Shown: positions 3,821-63,223, counted from the first letter of the stretch. The stretch is DNA of 64,000 bases from Sphingomonas vulcanisoli (GCF_011761305.1 NZ_JAAOZC010000004.1:124001-188000), one strand, 5' to 3'. Translations and numbers: made by a program. The notes: a model not told the origin generated them from the letters alone.

Positions 3821-3942
3821 GATCCTCCCCTGCAAGGGGAGGTGGCATCGCGCAGCGATGACGGAGGGGTGTCACCCTTTTGGATAGCGGGATACCCCTC
3901 CACCATCCTTCGGATGGTCCCCCTCCGCTTGCAGGGGAGGAT
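3821..3942. repeat. GGGGAGG-type palindromic repeat, left border of the ion-channel operon
   Basis: The element has ATCCTCCCC TGCAA GGGGAGG at one end, a CGCGCAGCG-type inner palindrome, a GGAGGGGTGT / ACCCCTCC pair, and a closing CCCCTCC...GCAGGGGAGGATT hairpin. It closely resembles the copies at 7839, 19880, 50072 and 63100. It ends 48 bases before the ClC gene, whose operon is closed on the far side by the 7839 copy. Confidence 0.85.
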
Positions 3943-3990
3943 TTTAGTGCAGTTCCGATGCGCAGAAACTTCCGTTAGAGACTTTGGGGG

Positions 3991-5901
3991 ATGGATTTGA
4001 CGACCCCGCCCGAAGCCGACGCGCCGCGCGACGCCCGCCCCGAAGAGGGGCCGGCGGTCGAAAGCGCCGCGGACGCGCGCCGCCATTTCGCGCGCGAGAT
4101 GGCGGACGGTTTCCTTGCGCCCTTCGGCGGATCGGCGCGCGCGATGCAGGTGGCGAGCCAGAGCGCGCACTGGATGGCGCCGGCGGTGGTTCGCCTGCGC
4201 CGCACCGTTCGCACCAGCGAAGCCGCGCTGATCCTGGTCGCGCTGATGATCGGCATCGCGGCAGGCATCGGCACTTTGCTCCAGAGCGGCATCGCGCATG
4301 GCCTGCAGGTATGGATTTACAATATCGATAGTGATGCGCGGCTGAGCGCGCAGGATCATGTCGCGCCGTTGCGCTTGCTTGCTTTGCCGATCGGCGGCGC
4401 GGTGCTCGCGGGTTTCGGGCTGATGCTCCGCCGCCGCAAGCGGCCCCCGATCGACGTGGTCGAGGCCAATGCGCTCAACGGCGGCGTCATTCCGATCCGC
4501 GACAGTCTGCAGGTTTCCGCCCAGACCCTGCTGTCCAACGGTGCAGGCGCATCGGTGGGGCTGGAGGCGGCCTATGCGCAGATCGGCGGCGGCATCGCCT
4601 CTGTGGCGGGGCAATGGCTCCGGCTGCGGCGCGCGGACTTGCGCATCCTGGTCGGCGCGGGCGCGGGCGCCGCGGTGGGTGCGGCGTTCGGGGCGCCGCT
4701 GACCGGCGCATTCTATGCGTTCGAGATCGTGATCGGCGCCTATACGCCCGCCGCCATCGCACCCGTGTTGACCGCATCGCTGGCCGCTTCGGTAATCGTC
4801 CGTAGCTCAGGCGCGCACGCCTATCTGATCGCGCTGCCCAGCGCCTCGGCGATCCTGACCTGGGATTATCTCCTCTACGCATCGTTGGGCCTGTTCTGCG
4901 CTTTGCTCGGTATCGCCTTGATGCGCCTGGTGACTTTGCTGGAGATCGGTGTCCGACGCTCGCCGATCCCGGACATCTATCGGCCGATCGCCGGCGGCCT
5001 GCTGCTGATCCCGCTGGCCTGGGCGAGCCCGCAGACGCTCTCGGCGGGGCACGGCGCGCTCCACCTCGATCTCACCACGCAGATCGGGCTTGTGCTGCTG
5101 ATCCAGATCTTCCTGTTGAAGGCGCTCGCCTCCGCCGTCTCGCTGGGTTTCGGTTTCCGTGGCGGCCTGTTCTTCGCCTCGCTGTTTCTGGGATCGCTGG
5201 TCGGCCAGATCTTCTCCGGCGTGATCGCGCTGATCCCCGGCGCCAACCCCGTCGATCCCAGCGATGCGGCGGTGATCGGCATGGCGGCGATGGCGGTTTC
5301 GGTGGTCGGCGGGCCAATGACCATGTCGATGCTGGTGCTGGAAACGACGCACGATTTCGCGCTGACCGGCACCGCGATCGCCGCCACGCTCTGCGCCAGC
5401 ACTTTGGTGCGCGAGACGTTCGGCTATTCCTTCTCCACCTGGCGGCTGCACACGCGCGGCGAGACGGTGCGCAGCGCGCGCGACATCGGCTGGATCAAGA
5501 ATTTGACTGCGGGCAATCTGATGCAGGGCAATGCGCCGACGATCGCGGCCACCGCGACGATCGCCGAATTCCGCCGCCGCTTTCCTCTGGGCGCGGCGCG
5601 CAAGGTGATCCTGACCGGAACGGAGGGCGGCTATGCCGGGCTTGCCGCCACGATCGCGGCTTATGGCGAAGACGTGCAGCCGGAAGCCCCGCTCTCTTCG
5701 ATCGCCGTGCTCACCGATCGCGCGCTGGCGCCCGAGCATGACGCGGTGACGATCATGCGCATTTTCGAGGAGGAGGAAGCCGACGATCTCGCCGTGGTCG
5801 CGCCCGATCGCACCATTCTTGGCCTCGTCTCCGAAACCTTCGTCCGCAAGCGCTATACCGAGGAGATCGAAAAATCCCAGCGCGCGCTGTTCGGGGAATG
5901 A
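3991..5901 (+). CDS. ClC-family chloride channel with C-terminal CBS-like region
   Basis: This 636-residue integral membrane protein has about 10-12 hydrophobic segments between residues 75 and 475, then a cytoplasmic tail with CBS-like sequence (about 505-625). ClC signatures are visible but altered: GASVGLEAAYAQIG (186-199) aligns with GxSxGxEGPxxQ and keeps the gating glutamate (E192), while GGLFFASLFLG (391-401) matches GGxFxPSLxxG with Pro changed to Ala. At the position of the proton glutamate of exchangers the sequence reads FEI (244-246), as in channel-type ClCs, so passive chloride flux is more likely than 2Cl-/H+ exchange. The gene is first of a three-gene operon with ATGA overlaps to the next genes. 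An 80-residue acidic/polar N-terminus precedes the first membrane helix. TTTGGGGG lies just before the ATG. Confidence 0.88.
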   Translation: MDLTTPPEADAPRDARPEEGPAVESAADARRHFAREMADGFLAPFGGSARAMQVASQSAHWMAPAVVRLRRTVRTSEAALILVALMIGIAAGIGTLLQSGIAHGLQVWIYNIDSDARLSAQDHVAPLRLLALPIGGAVLAGFGLMLRRRKRPPIDVVEANALNGGVIPIRDSLQVSAQTLLSNGAGASVGLEAAYAQIGGGIASVAGQWLRLRRADLRILVGAGAGAAVGAAFGAPLTGAFYAFEIVIGAYTPAAIAPVLTASLAASVIVRSSGAHAYLIALPSASAILTWDYLLYASLGLFCALLGIALMRLVTLLEIGVRRSPIPDIYRPIAGGLLLIPLAWASPQTLSAGHGALHLDLTTQIGLVLLIQIFLLKALASAVSLGFGFRGGLFFASLFLGSLVGQIFSGVIALIPGANPVDPSDAAVIGMAAMAVSVVGGPMTMSMLVLETTHDFALTGTAIAATLCASTLVRETFGYSFSTWRLHTRGETVRSARDIGWIKNLTAGNLMQGNAPTIAATATIAEFRRRFPLGAARKVILTGTEGGYAGLAATIAAYGEDVQPEAPLSSIAVLTDRALAPEHDAVTIMRIFEEEEADDLAVVAPDRTILGLVSETFVRKRYTEEIEKSQRALFGE

Positions 5902-6983
5902 TGGACGAGACGCATACCTCTTTCCCCCGCCTGCTCGGCACCGCCCTGCTTATCCTGCTCCTTGTGGGCATCGGCGCGGTCATCGGCGCGACCTTGTGGC
6001 CGCGCGTTGTCACGGTCGAGCAGCGCGTGACCGCGCCGATCCGCCGCGATATCGGCGCGCAGGGCTTTGCTGAGCGGCTGCCCGATCTGGTCGAGGCGAC
6101 CTGCCCCGCGATCGTCCAAGTCAACGGCCTGCTCCCGACCCCTTCCGTAGCGAATCTGCCTAAGGGGCACAAAGCGAAGCGCGCGATGCCTCCTCCCCCG
6201 CCGATCACCAACGGCTTTTTCGTCAGCGACGATGGGTATGTGCTGGCGATGGCACCGGGGGCGCATCCGCAAGGGCCGATCAGCGTGCAGATGCCCGACG
6301 GCAGCAATGCCGAAGCCGAGCTTCGCGCGTCCGATCCCGCGACCGGGCTCGTCCTGCTAAAGGTCGATGGCAAGGGCCTGACTACACTCGATTTTTCCGA
6401 CGAAGATTTCCCGCGCATCGGCGCATCGGGCCTGATCCCCTTCGTCGCGCCCGGCCAACGCTGCGCGATCCAGACGGGAATCGTCGCGGCGGACTATCTC
6501 GTCGATCATGCCCATAACGCCGGCACGATCCGCGCCACGCCCGCGCTCGATCCCGTTCTCGTCGGCGCGCCTCTGATCGACAGCGACGGCGATGTCTTCG
6601 GCATCGCCATGCCGGCGGACGGCAAGCGCGGCACGCCCTATCTGCCCGGCAATGTCGCCGCGCGCGTGGTCAGCCAGATGCTGCGCTCGGGCTCGCCGAC
6701 GCGCGCGTTGGGCATCGTGCCTGACGACCTCACGCCCGTCCTCGCGCGCCGGCTCGCTACTGATCGCCAGCGCGGCGCGGTGATCAGCTGGGTGGTTCCG
6801 GGCTCGGCCGCCGACAAGGCCGGGCTGCACGCCGCCGACATCGTCCTGGCAGTCAACGGCGCACCGATCTCCGGCGCATCCGAGCTCTCGCGCACACTTG
6901 ACGGCGCCCGTGGCACAATCCCGTTGACGATCCTCCGTGATGGACAGCAGATCGCGATGACGCTGAGCGGACCGGACCAATGA
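5898..6983 (+). CDS. Membrane-anchored PDZ protein with inactive HtrA-like protease domain
   Basis: A single N-terminal membrane helix (about 10-33) anchors a periplasmic region resembling DegS/HtrA, followed by a PDZ domain (about 268-355; GSAADKAGLHAADIVLAVNG). All three catalytic positions look lost. Where HtrA has TNNHVV this protein has AMAPGAH. The TDLALLK aspartate becomes TGLVLLK (about 148-154). The GNSGGPL serine region reads VLVGAPL (about 219-225). A Pro-rich linker (MPPPPP) precedes the beta-barrel. The gene overlaps its neighbours by four bases on each side, so it is probably translated with the ClC and K+ channels. It more likely acts as a scaffold or sensor than a peptidase. 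Triad loss was judged by eye alignment. Confidence 0.8.
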   Translation: MMDETHTSFPRLLGTALLILLLVGIGAVIGATLWPRVVTVEQRVTAPIRRDIGAQGFAERLPDLVEATCPAIVQVNGLLPTPSVANLPKGHKAKRAMPPPPPITNGFFVSDDGYVLAMAPGAHPQGPISVQMPDGSNAEAELRASDPATGLVLLKVDGKGLTTLDFSDEDFPRIGASGLIPFVAPGQRCAIQTGIVAADYLVDHAHNAGTIRATPALDPVLVGAPLIDSDGDVFGIAMPADGKRGTPYLPGNVAARVVSQMLRSGSPTRALGIVPDDLTPVLARRLATDRQRGAVISWVVPGSAADKAGLHAADIVLAVNGAPISGASELSRTLDGARGTIPLTILRDGQQIAMTLSGPDQ

Positions 6984-7837
6984 GCCCGCGCAAGCGCCGT
7001 CGCACCATCGATCTCGGCACGATCCGCGCGGTGAAAATCGGTACGCCGCCGCCGATCAGCGATATCTATTATGCGACGATGGAGATGAGCTGGCCGACGT
7101 TCATCGCTCTCGTCAGCCTCGTTTTCGTCGGCATCAACCTGCTGTTCGGGCTGCTCTATGCGGCGCTGCCCGGCGCGTTGATTAACGCGCAGCCCGGATC
7201 GGTCGCCGATGGTTTTTTCTTCTCGGTGGAGACGTTGGGCACCGTCGGCTACGGCAATATGGCGCCGGCCACGCACCTCGGCCACCTGATCGCCGCCGCC
7301 GAAATCCTGCTCGGCCTGTTCTTTTCGGCGACGATCACCGGGCTGATCTTCGCGCGCTTCGCGCGGCCGCGCACCAGTTTCGAATTTGCCAATGTCGCAG
7401 TGGTGGGCAGGCGCGAGAACCAGCGGCTGCTGATGATCCGCCTGGCCTCGACCCGGCTCCGCGCGATCGCCGATTGCACCGCGCAGCTCTCCTGGGTGCG
7501 CAAGATAACGCTGAACGATGGCCGCAGCTTTCGTCAGCTTGTCGATCTGCCGCTGGTCCAGTCGCATCACCCCCAGCTCGTCTTCAACTGGACGCTGGTC
7601 CACGAGATCGACGAGGCCTCCGATATGTATCAGGCCCTGCTGGCGGGCGGCGAGTTTCGCCTGACCGCGACGATCAGCGGCATCGATACCCTGCTTGCCA
7701 GCCAGGCGATTGGCGGCACCAGCTACCGGCGCAAGGATATCCTGATCGATCATGAATTTGACGACATGATCGACGACAGCCGCGAAACCTTCGAATTCGA
7801 TCTCACCAAGCTTCACGGTGTCCACCCGCGCTCGTAA
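6980..7837 (+). CDS. Inward-rectifier (KirBac-type) potassium channel
   Basis: The 285-residue protein has the Kir architecture: a short cytoplasmic N-terminus with slide helix, outer helix (about 38-62), pore helix plus filter FFFSVETLGTVGYGN (about 79-93), inner helix (about 100-125) and a C-terminal immunoglobulin-like cytoplasmic domain (about 130-275). The TVGYG filter predicts K+ selectivity. Length is normal for KirBac. It is the last gene of the operon, overlapping the pseudoprotease gene by ATGA. A repeat begins one base after the stop codon and probably terminates transcription. Pairing with an anion channel suggests coupled KCl movement; that is inference. Confidence 0.92.
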   Translation: MSPRKRRRTIDLGTIRAVKIGTPPPISDIYYATMEMSWPTFIALVSLVFVGINLLFGLLYAALPGALINAQPGSVADGFFFSVETLGTVGYGNMAPATHLGHLIAAAEILLGLFFSATITGLIFARFARPRTSFEFANVAVVGRRENQRLLMIRLASTRLRAIADCTAQLSWVRKITLNDGRSFRQLVDLPLVQSHHPQLVFNWTLVHEIDEASDMYQALLAGGEFRLTATISGIDTLLASQAIGGTSYRRKDILIDHEFDDMIDDSRETFEFDLTKLHGVHPRS

Positions 7838-7838
7838 G

Positions 7839-7954
7839 TCCTCCCCTTGAAGGGGAGGTGGCGCGCGCAGCGCGTCGGAGGGGTATCGCGTATCGATGGG
7901 GTGACACCCCTCCGTCAGCCCTATGGGCTGCCACCTCCCCTTGCAGGGGAGGAT
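7839..7954. repeat. GGGGAGG-type palindromic repeat, right border of the ion-channel operon
   Basis: The sequence starts TCCTCCCC TTGAA GGGGAGG directly after the K+ channel stop, contains GCGCGCAGCGCG and GGAGGGGT/ACCCCTCC pairs, and ends CCTCCCC TTGCA GGGGAGGAT. Same subfamily as 3821. It lies between convergent genes (channel operon and beta-lactamase homologue), a usual place for a bidirectional terminator. Confidence 0.85.
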
Positions 7955-7972: not shown

Positions 7973-8956
7973 TCAATGCCCCTCGCTCATCCCGAAATCG
8001 ATGGGGAGCGTGCCGAAGCCATCGTAGAGCATCCGCCCGAGCTGGGCGATGTTGCGATCGCGCGGCCCGTGGCCGCCGCTGCCTTGCTCGAACACCGCGA
8101 CGGCAAGCTCATGGCCGTTGGGCAGCGAGATGATGCCGACATCGTTGGAGACGCCGTCCAGCGTGCCCGTCTTGTGTGCGATCAGCGCATCGCCGGGCAG
8201 CATCGCCTTGAGCCGATGCGCACCGGTCCGGCAGCGTGCCATCACATCGAACAGATAGGCGGTATGCTGGCTATCGAGCAGATCGCCGCTGCGCAGCTTG
8301 GCAAGAAGGGTCGCCATCGCCTCAGGCGTCGAACTGTCGCGGACGTCGCCCACCGGCGCGGATTTGGGCACGGTGACGGTGATCCAATGCTTGTGCCGCT
8401 TCCGGCCGACCTCAACGCGCGTCTTGACCTCGCGCGCGCTCAGCAAATCCGCGATCGAGCGATCGACACGCTGGCCGGTAACGCCCGCCTGATGCAGCCA
8501 TTCGCCCACCGCGACGGTGCCGCCAACCGCGCCAAGCAGGATGTCCGCCGCGCTATTGTCGCTGCGCGTGAGCATCAGATCGATCAGATCGGCGCCGCTG
8601 GCCGTGCGGCCGAAGCCCCTCATATTGCCGATCCGCGAGGCCTTGCGCCGCTCGTCCGCCGCCATGCTGTAGACCCGGTCGAGGCTCTGGCGGCCAAGTT
8701 GAACCTGATGGAGGAAGGCGGCGGCGATCGCCACCTTGACCGTACTCGCCATCGGAAAGCGGTCAGCGCCGTTGACCGAAACCATCTCGCCATTGGTGAG
8801 GTCGATCGCAGCGATGCCGACCCGCGCCGGGGCCGAATGGGCCAGCGCGGCGAGGCGGGGTTGCAGCGTCGACGAAATCTGATTGGGCGCGGCAGGCTGC
8901 GCGGACAAGGGCGCAGCGGCTAGAAGCGCCGCACCGGAGAACAGCCATATCCTCAT
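7973..8956 (-). CDS. Class A beta-lactamase-like serine hydrolase lacking Glu166
   Basis: The 327-residue exported protein has a signal peptide (about 1-20, ending LSAQ) and the serine penicillin-recognising fold: SxxK at 71-74 (STVK), SDN at 132-134 and KTG at 262-264. In class A enzymes the omega loop after DRW carries ExxLN; here the matching stretch is DRSIADLL, so the deacylating glutamate is absent, and about 25 extra, basic residues (178-202) follow before the STPEAMATLL helix. It may therefore bind or acylate with beta-lactams without efficient turnover, or act on another substrate. Its ATG overlaps the gspI stop (ATGA), so it is translated with two type II secretion pseudopilins. The start at 8956 is chosen for this overlap and the signal peptide. 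Confidence 0.8.
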   Translation of the reverse strand: MRIWLFSGAALLAAAPLSAQPAAPNQISSTLQPRLAALAHSAPARVGIAAIDLTNGEMVSVNGADRFPMASTVKVAIAAAFLHQVQLGRQSLDRVYSMAADERRKASRIGNMRGFGRTASGADLIDLMLTRSDNSAADILLGAVGGTVAVGEWLHQAGVTGQRVDRSIADLLSAREVKTRVEVGRKRHKHWITVTVPKSAPVGDVRDSSTPEAMATLLAKLRSGDLLDSQHTAYLFDVMARCRTGAHRLKAMLPGDALIAHKTGTLDGVSNDVGIISLPNGHELAVAVFEQGSGGHGPRDRNIAQLGRMLYDGFGTLPIDFGMSEGH

Positions 8957-9321
8957 CGGCTCACCGTCCCCGCATCGAGAAAACCGCGCAAACTCGCCAT
9001 CCTGGCCCCCTTCGCATCGGACACGGAAACCATCACCTGACGCACGTCCGGATCGTCGCTCGCGCCGATCTCCTGCCCGACGTGCCACGCCTCGCCTAAC
9101 ATCGGCTCAATGGGATGAAGGTCGATCGCCTTCTCACCCAGCTGCAGTTCGGCAAGGCGGTTTTCCGCCACCCATTGCGCGCCCGCGCGCCGCTCCAGCC
9201 CGCGCGCGGCATCGATCGAGCCTTCCAGCGCGCGGATCAGCCCGGCGCTGGCGATGGCAAGGATGGCGAGCGCGACCAAAGCCTCGATCAGCGTGAACCC
9301 CTGCTCGCCCGGCCGCATCAT
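8953..9321 (-). CDS. gspI: Type II secretion minor pseudopilin GspI
   Basis: This 122-residue protein has a prepilin leader ending in a glycine before FTLIEALVALAILA (about residues 9-22), with the expected Glu at position 5 after cleavage. That pattern is the type IV pilin/pseudopilin signature processed by GspO. The remainder fits GspI, which forms the pseudopilus tip with GspJ and GspK. It overlaps gspH upstream (ATGA) and the beta-lactamase homologue downstream. Inner membrane until assembly. Confidence 0.82.
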   Translation of the reverse strand: MMRPGEQGFTLIEALVALAILAIASAGLIRALEGSIDAARGLERRAGAQWVAENRLAELQLGEKAIDLHPIEPMLGEAWHVGQEIGASDDPDVRQVMVSVSDAKGARMASLRGFLDAGTVSR

Positions 9322-10404: not shown

Positions 10405-11279
10405 AGCTTATCCCCGAACACGAACAAGGCCTCGCGCTGATCAACGTGCTGCTGATGGTGGCGCTGGCGAGCGGGCTGATCGCCGCGATCCTGATCGCCG
10501 AAAACGCAGGCATCGCACGCTCCACCCGCCTCCACGAGGCGGCAAGCGCCGACGCCGTGCTGCAGGGTGCCGAGCTTTCCGCCATCGCCGCGCTTCGCCG
10601 CGATATGGTCCAGCACCCCGACAGCGACGATCAGACCGAGGCCTGGGCGCGGATTTCGGACACGGATCGCAAGATCGCGGGTGGCCGCTTCACGCTGCTG
10701 GTGGCAGACGCGCAGGCGAAGCTCAATCTCAATGCGCTCGCCAAGAACGACGGACCCTCGCTGATCCTGCTGCCCGCGATCGTTCAGGCGCTCAAACTGC
10801 CACCTGACACCACGATCAAGATGCTCGCGCTGTTCAAGGCGGTCGGCCCGATTTCCAGCATCGCGCAGCTCGGCCTTGCCGGCATCGACCCTGCCACGAT
10901 CGCCAAGCTGGCAGCGCTCTGCACGGTGCTGCCGCCCGACATGAACCGCATCAACGTCAACGATGCCGATGAGGCGATGCTCTCGGTGCTGCTTGGCGAT
11001 CCGATCCTCGGCAGGCTCCTCGCCAATCGCCGCGCGCGGCTGGGATTGCTGACCGAGGGCGATTTCATCGCCGCCCGATCGCGCGTACCCGCGGCGGCCG
11101 GCTTCAAATCCGATTTTTATTGGGCGCGCGGCCGCGTCACGATCGGCGGCACCACCCGCGAGCAGATCAGCCTGCTCCGCCGCGATATGGCCGATAATCA
11201 GCCCCGCGTCGTGGCGATCAGCCGCTGGCTGGGCGGTGCCGCGCCGCTCGACGCGCCGCCGCTCAAGCCTACCAGTTGA
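10401..11279 (+). CDS. gspK: Type II secretion minor pseudopilin GspK
   Basis: This 292-residue protein matches GspK, the largest minor pseudopilin. An N-terminal prepilin-like segment (EQGLALINVLLMVALASGLIA, about 8-28) lacks the usual Glu5, as is normal for GspK and allows it to sit at the tip. A large globular domain follows with helix-hairpin-helix-like repeats (SSIAQLGLAGIDPATIAKLAALCTVLP; RINVNDADEAMLSVLLG). The GTG start overlaps the gspJ stop. No gspL/M follows, so the locus is split on the chromosome. Confidence 0.85.
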   Translation: MKLIPEHEQGLALINVLLMVALASGLIAAILIAENAGIARSTRLHEAASADAVLQGAELSAIAALRRDMVQHPDSDDQTEAWARISDTDRKIAGGRFTLLVADAQAKLNLNALAKNDGPSLILLPAIVQALKLPPDTTIKMLALFKAVGPISSIAQLGLAGIDPATIAKLAALCTVLPPDMNRINVNDADEAMLSVLLGDPILGRLLANRRARLGLLTEGDFIAARSRVPAAAGFKSDFYWARGRVTIGGTTREQISLLRRDMADNQPRVVAISRWLGGAAPLDAPPLKPTS

Positions 11280-11379
11280 CGAGTTCGTAAAGCCAGGCGC
11301 GCCCGCGCGGGATGGTCATCAGCACGAGCACGACCGGCAGACCAACGATGAGAAACAGATAGTTCAGCGTTTGGCGCAT
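11269..11379 (-). CDS. Possible small one-helix membrane protein
   Basis: A 36-residue reading frame (MRQTLNYLFLIVGLP...) has one strongly hydrophobic helix (about 7-23) and a charged, aromatic C-terminus. It lies downstream of tRNA-Ile2 on the same strand and overlaps the last 11 bases of convergent gspK. The ribosome binding site is weak and I know no family for it, so it may be chance. Confidence 0.35.
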   Translation of the reverse strand: MRQTLNYLFLIVGLPVVLVLMTIPRGRAWLYELVNW

Positions 11380-11433
11380 ACCGCCAAGACGTCGCCAAAA
11401 AGCCAGGTCCACATCGGACGAGGAAAAGTATTT

Positions 11434-11509
11434 TGGTGGGCCCGGCAGGACTCGAACCCGCAACCTAGCCGTTATGAGCGGCCAGCTCTAACCGTTGAGC
11501 TACAGGCCC
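11434..11509 (-). tRNA. tRNA-Ile2 (CAU anticodon, lysidine-modified type)
   Basis: A complete cloverleaf with encoded CCA: acceptor GGGCCTG pairs with CGGGCCC, the D-arm is GCTC...GAGC, the anticodon stem GGCCG/CGGCT carries CTCATAA, and the T-arm has GTTCGAGT. Anticodon CAT is at 11476-11474. The GGGCCTGTAGCTC start resembles alphaproteobacterial tRNA-Ile(CAU), which TilS converts to read AUA, more than elongator tRNA-Met. The first ten bases overlap the 3' end of the upstream kinase-like gene, whose stop codon TAG is formed by tRNA bases 8-10. Confidence 0.88.
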
Positions 11510-12945
11510 ACGGGCGCGGCAATAACCGCACCGCCTCTTGCCTGTCCAGATCGCGCCGGCAAGGAAAGGATCAGACGATCGTCGGCGATGCTGAGCGTAC
11601 CGCCCACCTGATCGGCGAGCTTCTCGACCAGCCGCAAGGCGAAGCCCAACGCGAGCATCGCCGCATCCTGGCTATCCGGATCGCGGAGCTGATCGGCGCC
11701 GCGCCCGACGAGCCTGCCGGGCCGCGTGATCGTCAGCGTCAGGCGGCGGCGCTGTTCCCGATCGCGCGCCAGCCGGGCGACGATCCGCTCGCGCTTGCGC
11801 CCCAGCGGCACCACCGAGGTGACGAGCCGCGTCACCATCCGCTCCAGTTCCTCGGGCTCGACATCGGCAGGCGGCAGATCGCGCGGGATACGGAAATCGA
11901 GCACCAACCCGCGCGCCTCGGCGAGCGGCCCCAAGGCACCGTGCAGCCGCTCCAACATCGATCCGAGATCGAGCGGCGCGTCATGCGCGCGGATCGCCAT
12001 GTCCTCGAAGCGGCCGATCGCATCGGCCAACGCCTGGCCCTGCTCGGCGACTTCACGCGCGATCGTAATGGCATCGCCGCCCGGAAGCTCGGCCTCGCCC
12101 AGTGCCGTCAGCGGATCGCGCAGCCGATGCACGGCGCGCAGAAAATCGTCGCTTTCCGAGCCGACCACGGCTGTGGACGGCGTAGTCGGTGCCGCGACCT
12201 CATCGGCGCGCGGCAGACGCGCCACACCGCGGTATCCCAACAGAAGCCCCGCCTTATCGATGATCGGCGAGGCGGCGACCCGCCAGACACCCGCGCACGG
12301 TCCCTCCGCGATTTCGAGCCTGGCGTCGGCCATCGCCATCTTGGCGCGCCACGCTCCGATCGCCTGGCCGTCGACGCCTTGCGGTTCGGCGCCAAGCCTC
12401 GGCCCCAGCGCCGTGCCATCGGCATCGAAGAAGGCGCCCTCGGCATCGATCGAAAAGGCAAAGCTCTCCAACGCTGGCGCCGCTTCGGACCGCTCCTGCT
12501 GAAACGCCTCGATCCGCGCGAGGAGATCGACGATTTGAGTTGCAGCGGGAGGCGCCAGCGCCTGCGCAATTCCCGCCGGCAGATCGTGGCGCGCGGCAAG
12601 GATCGCGCGGGCGCGGGAGTCAAGTCGCGGCAAGAGCGCGCCCCACTCGCCCTCATGCAACTGCGCCGCCGCCAGCAAGGGCCGGGCGATATCCGCTTCC
12701 TCAGCGAAAAACGCCAACAGAGCGCCGGAAACGCCGGCTTGCGCGGCCCGCACCGCGCTCGCGCGCCGCTGTTCGGAGGAGATGTCCTTGCGGAGAATCT
12801 GTGCACGCTCGACCGCCTGCGCCATCACAGCGGCATCGCCGCCCTGCGCGATCAGATCGATCAACTGGGTCCAGGCGCGGCCACGCGCCGCCGCATTGTC
12901 GGCGTCCCAACCGAGCACTGTCTCGATGCGATCGTCGTAGCGCAA
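11500..12945 (-). CDS. Degenerate sensor histidine kinase-like protein
   Basis: The 481-residue soluble protein has a helical N-terminus (1-150), a PAS-like section (about 160-245), a dimerisation-type segment with a recognisable H-box (VHRLRDPLTAL, His273) and a C-terminal part laid out like HATPase_c (about 330-470). The N-box asparagine and the DxGxG motif are not visible (MVTRLVTSVVPLG; TITRPGRLVG), so ATP binding is doubtful. It may be a phosphotransfer or pseudokinase protein. The start is TTG at 12945 with no strong ribosome binding site, hence uncertain. The stop codon lies inside tRNA-Ile2, so the tRNA may be processed from this transcript. Confidence 0.6.
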   Translation of the reverse strand: MRYDDRIETVLGWDADNAAARGRAWTQLIDLIAQGGDAAVMAQAVERAQILRKDISSEQRRASAVRAAQAGVSGALLAFFAEEADIARPLLAAAQLHEGEWGALLPRLDSRARAILAARHDLPAGIAQALAPPAATQIVDLLARIEAFQQERSEAAPALESFAFSIDAEGAFFDADGTALGPRLGAEPQGVDGQAIGAWRAKMAMADARLEIAEGPCAGVWRVAASPIIDKAGLLLGYRGVARLPRADEVAAPTTPSTAVVGSESDDFLRAVHRLRDPLTALGEAELPGGDAITIAREVAEQGQALADAIGRFEDMAIRAHDAPLDLGSMLERLHGALGPLAEARGLVLDFRIPRDLPPADVEPEELERMVTRLVTSVVPLGRKRERIVARLARDREQRRRLTLTITRPGRLVGRGADQLRDPDSQDAAMLALGFALRLVEKLADQVGGTLSIADDRLILSLPARSGQARGGAVIAAPVGL

Positions 12946-19879: not shown

Positions 19880-19997
19880 ATCCTCCCCTGAAAGGGGAGG
19901 TGGCAGGCAAAGCCTGACGGAGGGGTATTACCCTCTCGATAGCGAAACACCCCTCCACCATGCTACGCATGGTCCCCCTCCCCTTGCAGGGGAGGAT
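19880..19997. repeat. GGGGAGG-type palindromic repeat
   Basis: ATCCTCCCC TGAAA GGGGAGG begins it, GGAGGGGTATT...ACACCCCTCC lies inside, and CCCTCCCC TTGCA GGGGAGGAT closes it. Same subfamily as 3821, 7839 and 63100. Its final T forms the first base (complement of the stop) of the DUF488 gene on the minus strand, so it abuts two convergent genes. Confidence 0.85.
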
Positions 19998-50071: not shown

Positions 50072-50190
50072 GATCCTCCCCTGCAAGGGGAGGTGGCGCG
50101 CGCAGCGCGTCGGAGGGGTGTCGAGCTATCGACAGCGGGATACCCCTCCGTCAGCCCTGCGGGCTACCACCTCCCCTTACAGGGGAGGAT
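50072..50190. repeat. GGGGAGG-type repeat, left border of the metallo-beta-lactamase gene
   Basis: ATCCTCCCC TGCAA GGGGAGG, GCGCGCAGCGCG, GGAGGGGTGTC...ATACCCCTCC and CCTCCCC TTACA GGGGAGGAT appear in the same order as at 7839. It ends ten bases before the lactamase ATG, and its last GGGGAGGA lies close to the separate GGAGGGAG ribosome binding site. Confidence 0.85.
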
Positions 50191-63099: not shown

Positions 63100-63223
63100 A
63101 TCCTCCCCTGCAAGGGGAGGTGGCAGCCCGCAGGGCTGACGGAGGGGTGTCACCCTCTCGACAGCGGGACACCCCTCCACCATTCGCTGCGCGAACGGTC
63201 CCCCTCCCCTTGCAGGGGAGGAT
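63100..63223. repeat. GGGGAGG-type repeat, right border of the M23 gene
   Basis: ATCCTCCCC TGCAA GGGGAGG immediately follows the M23 stop codon; GCAGCCCGCAGGGCTG, GGAGGGGTGTC / ACACCCCTCC and CCCTCCCC TTGCA GGGGAGGAT follow. Same subfamily as 3821 and 50072. It separates the convergent M23 and XRE genes. Confidence 0.85.

Follow-up and report, generated by a model that had tools for sequence, protein, structure and literature searches.

Three genes on the plus strand occupy positions 3991 to 7837 of the window, the whole 64,000-nucleotide stretch of Sphingomonas vulcanisoli DNA analyzed here (GCF_011761305.1, NZ_JAAOZC010000004.1:124001-188000). All three open reading frames are complete and begin with ATG. 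They encode, in order, a ClC-family protein, an HtrA-like pseudoprotease and a KirBac K+ channel, with the following features.

3824-3940, no strand: REP-like palindrome doublet upstream of the operon (palindrome search)
3991-5901, plus strand: ClC-family protein, 636 aa, with a ClC membrane domain and a divergent C-terminal CBS-like region (Pfam, profile match)
4564-4566, plus strand: Glu192 codon, which aligns with E148, the external gating glutamate in ClC-ec1; glutamate kept (alignments)
4726-4728, plus strand: Ile246 codon, where ClC-ec1 has its inner proton glutamate, E203; glutamate lost (alignments)
5425-5427, plus strand: Tyr479 codon, likely counterpart of ClC-ec1 Y445 (assigned by eye from the helix R motif)
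5898-5901, plus strand: ATGA shared by the ClC stop codon and the pseudoprotease start codon (overlapping start also in orthologous pairs)
5898-6983, plus strand: HtrA/DegS-like pseudoprotease of 361 aa, anchored in the membrane and carrying a single PDZ domain (Pfam, fold match, catalytic triad absent)
5922-5996, plus strand: membrane-spanning helix near the N-terminus, residues 9-33, containing the conserved G26 (AlphaFold helix, hydropathy)
6102-6104, plus strand: Cys69 codon, invariant (ortholog alignment)
6210-6605, plus strand: degenerate trypsin-like domain, residues 105-236 (Pfam Trypsin_2)
6462-6464, plus strand: Cys189 codon, invariant, putative disulfide partner of Cys69 (ortholog alignment)
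6768-6932, plus strand: PDZ domain, residues 291-345 (Pfam PDZ)
6980-6983, plus strand: ATGA shared by the pseudoprotease stop codon and the Kir start codon (in this genome alone among the loci read)
6980-7837, plus strand: KirBac inward-rectifier-type K+ channel, 285 aa (Pfam, KirBac1.1 match, clade)
7241-7255, plus strand: K+ selectivity filter TVGYG (read from sequence)
7840-7952, no strand: REP-like palindrome doublet downstream of the operon (palindrome search)

An earlier, sequence-only reading described three ATGA-joined genes of one operon. This layout holds at both junctions (5898-5901 and 6980-6983), and the gene identities it assigned are borne out by Pfam models scoring over cut-off. 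With both junctions of the ATGA type, co-expression of the three genes is likely in this organism. A scan for promoters and terminators gave nothing above chance. The REP-like doublets that bracket the operon (CCTCCCCTTGCAGGGGAGG, about 95 bp apart) also occur at window positions 19882-19995, 50075-50188 and 63102-63221, and their core palindrome has 101 exact copies genome-wide. Directly past the operon, at 7973-9088 on the minus strand, lies a beta-lactamase-type gene (Beta-lactamase2, 161 bits; STVK, SDN and KTGT motifs).

The first gene product has the ClC membrane fold (Pfam Voltage_CLC, 216 bits against a cut-off of 24.8), and its profile search matches ClC-ec1 and relatives. Like the ClC-ec1/ClcA exchangers, it retains the external gating glutamate, here E192, which is invariant in 82 homologues. 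Unlike them, it carries Ile in place of the inner proton glutamate, a position where each of the 82 homologues has I, L or V, has no GSGIP motif in the aligned region, is of low sequence identity, and bears N- and C-terminal extensions. Both the inner proton glutamate and the GSGIP motif that mark a ClC-ec1-type H+/Cl- exchanger are therefore missing. Because E192 is kept while these two features are gone, labeling the protein a passive channel would be unjustified; the protein might be a channel, or else a transporter of an unusual kind. Its C-terminal part resembles a diverged pair of CBS domains, matching CBS proteins in profile searches at E-values of 7e-6 and 8e-5, with a Pfam CBS score of 12.6 bits that falls under the cut-off of 24. 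The same genome encodes a second, canonical ClC (GSGIP, GREGP and EE) 13 kb beyond the window (G000:C4:201231-202241, L193).

The second gene product has the HtrA/DegS architecture, with trypsin-like and PDZ domains (Trypsin_2, 42.3 bits; PDZ_6, 42.5 bits; both over cut-off) following an N-terminal membrane helix. It matches DegP, DegQ and DegS structures by sequence and by predicted fold (best fold E-value 1.4e-22, from a model of moderate confidence with a pLDDT of 73.7). The membrane helix, trypsin-like domain, single PDZ domain and fold match are shared with DegS, from which the protein differs by loss of all three catalytic residues, by linkage of its gene to a ClC and by an invariant cysteine pair. 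An alignment that includes six intact DegP sequences from related bacteria shows P, G and V where the window protein would carry the catalytic His, Asp and Ser. None of the three residues is present in any of 18 pseudoprotease relatives, all of which have Gly at the Asp position, whereas the triad is kept in 6/6 DegP controls. The sequence-only reading, which spoke of a PDZ protein devoid of catalytic residues, was thus right about the active site and incomplete about the architecture, which comprises a degenerate protease domain as well as one PDZ domain. Although the triad is gone, the pseudoprotease is full-length and under purifying selection, with pairwise dN/dS values of 0.11-0.28 versus 0.03-0.19 for the ClC in six species pairs. 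C69, C189 and G26 of the membrane helix are invariant across 14 orthologs. Homology to DegS and DegP, together with the invariant cysteines, indicates that the folded domain is most likely periplasmic; positive charge flanking the helix on its N-terminal side favors an N-in orientation in some orthologs and is not clear for the window protein. MamO of magnetotactic bacteria is a comparable HtrA-type protein whose active site is likewise degenerate and whose role is not catalytic (PMC4794232), but it works in magnetosome formation, binds metal and has no ClC link.

The conserved core of the operon is the ClC-pseudoprotease pair, which the sequence-only reading did not single out. Our genome draws are samples, consisting of 1,614 genome searches counting repeats and one contig scan. 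Among the best 80 of 302 ClC relatives in the contig scan, which may leave out very close genomes, 12 have a pseudoprotease gene directly after the ClC gene; with the window and genome G201, this amounts to 14/82 subfamily loci. Most ClCs of the subfamily are without a pseudoprotease. Three more genomes (G723, G855 and G809) bring the pair to at least 17 sphingomonad loci, and in genome searches the pseudoprotease ortholog lies beside the ClC in all genomes but one. The 14 pair-linked ClCs form one clade (support 100/99), and linkage requires a single change on the ClC tree, a value as low being reached in 0/500 shuffles. ClC and pseudoprotease trees have their main clades in common. The pseudoprotease start overlaps the ClC stop in 12/14 pairs: six overlap by ATGA, one by TTGA and five through a GTG start with an 8-base overlap; in the two S. 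glacialis genomes the start, which is less certain, has no overlap. No conserved third gene was found behind the pair in the other loci. The pair is old, having arisen once and been co-inherited across sphingomonads.

The partnership is not obligatory everywhere, as two genomes illustrate. In G203, of the same genus, resides the ClC nearest to that of the window (84% identical, sister at 100/100). Homology to the window ends just past the stop codon of this ClC (L211 1-1300), at the ATGATG of the would-be downstream gene, and unrelated genes follow in place of pseudoprotease and Kir. Neither gene was found elsewhere in G203, whose assembly is fragmented, and a single, clean loss of the pseudoprotease is likely. 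In G799, a triad-less HtrA-like relative lies away from any ClC (L214 2531-8847), in the company of genes for an MscS-family channel, a DUF2254 membrane protein and a CitMHS permease, and the ClC of this genome is on another contig.

Four alignment columns (282, 283, 479 and 488, including L282-P283) distinguish pair-linked from unlinked ClCs under a rule of at least 13/14 versus at most 10%. We take positions 282-283, by analogy with known ClCs, to be in the extracellular I-J loop. Position 479, presumably the Y445 place, is F in 13/14 pair-linked ClCs and Y in 68/68 unlinked ones in the alignment of 82. Because pair-linked ClCs are one clade, their shared features are not independent events; the four differences are clade-level and hence weak evidence. 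The window ClC is alone in its pair-linked clade in having Tyr479, with Phe in the other 13 and in G203. It is also the sole member joined to a Kir gene, a coincidence that may be due to chance.

We assign a probability of about one half to the reading that the pair comprises a non-canonical ClC together with a dedicated accessory protein that evolved from an HtrA protease of the DegS type, with Kir having joined only in the lineage of the window. The conserved unit would then be a two-gene module, its ClC acting as an anion transporter or channel. The pseudoprotease is predicted to fold in the periplasm with a disulfide, to use its single helix for packing against the ClC, and to serve as a beta-like subunit in ClC stability or gating. 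Its PDZ domain may bind an envelope peptide, as in DegS, perhaps allowing peptide-responsive sensing. Physical association of the two proteins is what we infer here; conserved coupling of the genes shows co-expression, not contact.

Precedents found for such a partner are eukaryotic. One paper names the CLC beta-subunits OSTM1, barttin, GlialCAM and TMEM9, of which OSTM1 and TMEM9 are single-pass proteins with disulfide-stabilized luminal domains (PMC12403049). As with these subunits, the pseudoprotease is the dedicated partner of a particular CLC: it is inherited with one CLC type, save for the loss in G203 and the unlinked relative in G799. Its layout is like that of OSTM1 and TMEM9, but its fold is that of HtrA, which to our knowledge none of the four eukaryotic subunits possesses. 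Furthermore, binding is proven for the eukaryotic subunits, whereas that of the pseudoprotease to the ClC is a prediction. A literature search that had most subscription papers outside its reach found no described bacterial ClC accessory subunit and no ClC-PDZ or KirBac-ClC operon.

Two other roles for the pseudoprotease deserve consideration. Instead of a stable subunit, it might serve the ClC as a quality-control factor or as a chaperone of its assembly, a doubtful proposal that nonetheless draws on the typical occurrence of the HtrA fold and PDZ domain in envelope quality control and on gene coupling that would supply the protein as the ClC is synthesized. The same evidence suits chaperone and subunit alike, and the invariant helix glycine and cysteines fit either. 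A role in envelope stress signaling, or in regulation of another protease, with mere co-transcription with the ClC, has precedent in MamO, a repurposed HtrA protein that activates MamE (PMC4794232). It would also accord with the G799 relative, situated near MscS-family channel and CitMHS permease genes and apart from a ClC. Set against the single origin of the pair and its strict placement behind one ClC clade, this role seems unlikely.

The KirBac gene has a different history from the pair it follows. It is intact and encodes IRK transmembrane and cytoplasmic domains (Pfam IRK_C, 50.5 bits; IRK, 30.7 bits; both over cut-off) and a TVGYG filter. Homology to KirBac1.1, with which it shares the filter and the IRK cytoplasmic domain, is near whole-length (280 aligned residues, E-value 4e-50); the window protein is shorter, and its gene is joined to a ClC-HtrA operon in this genome alone. 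At 13 other ClC-HtrA loci, for which long flanks were read, and at three shorter ones, no Kir gene was present, and no ClC was found within about 1.5 kb of 27 other KirBac loci. Among 201 family genomes, six contain a KirBac, one of them weak and one that of the window, and none besides the latter is near a ClC or pseudoprotease gene. The only other KirBac in the genus, in G202, sits beside unrelated genes. The 12 and 9 further KirBac loci from class and phylum draws, respectively, two of them truncated by contig ends, likewise lacked a ClC within about 1.5 kb, and their neighbors vary from locus to locus. Because the linkage was found in the window alone and the other KirBac loci read had no ClC nearby, the position of Kir in the operon is a lineage-specific rearrangement, "this genome only" being subject to the possible omission of very close genomes, such as same-species strains, from the contig scan. 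Recent acquisition of foreign DNA is not supported, with an ordinary GC3 (0.835) and placement of the window Kir in a sphingomonad KirBac clade (100/100).

Weak Kir-profile hits (27-35 bits) around the pair in the S. mali/pruni/asaccharolytica group trace to a different, Ion_trans_2 channel, which we regard as a neighbor. Its gene lies about 1-2 kb upstream of the ClC and on the opposite strand, with a CoA-transferase gene between them in the one locus examined (L071, L073, L075 and L076 at about 3950-5030; L032 at 10790-11650; TVGFG filter in the one that was read).

The sequence-only reading had joined the three families in a salt-permeation unit, in which Kir and ClC pass K+ and Cl- together and the PDZ protein senses or tethers. 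Electroneutral salt flux through the two proteins is possible. The two ATGA overlaps and an intact Kir with a normal filter speak for a three-part unit. However, the survey of sphingomonad genomes found the Kir adjacency limited to this genome, the very outcome that reading had named as refuting it, and the ClC may be a channel or a transporter. Both ClC, after helix R, and Kir presumably end on the cytoplasmic side; because these C-termini and the PDZ domain, most likely periplasmic, would be on opposite sides of the membrane, a PDZ tether of both channels is topologically unlikely. We consider a three-part unit distinctly improbable. At most, KirBac would be a local extra that provides co-regulated K+ permeability in the lineage of the window. 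One paper calls the functional role of KirBac channels poorly defined (PMC4607889), and a Synechocystis KirBac6.1 deletion showed no growth phenotype when exposed to salt or osmotic stress (PMC13099474). Very unlikely is a more elaborate form of the accessory subunit, a DegS-like protease turned ligand sensor through which periplasmic peptides gate anion flux, with Kir added to create a stress-gated KCl pathway in the window's lineage.

Shifting attention from three genes to two matters, as the three-gene story rests on a junction found in one genome only. If our reading of the pair as a ClC with its accessory subunit is true, a stable, vertically inherited bacterial ClC-pseudoprotease pair would offer a simple system for learning how single-pass partners control CLC proteins. 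The pair would also illustrate how ion transport can recruit a protease scaffold.
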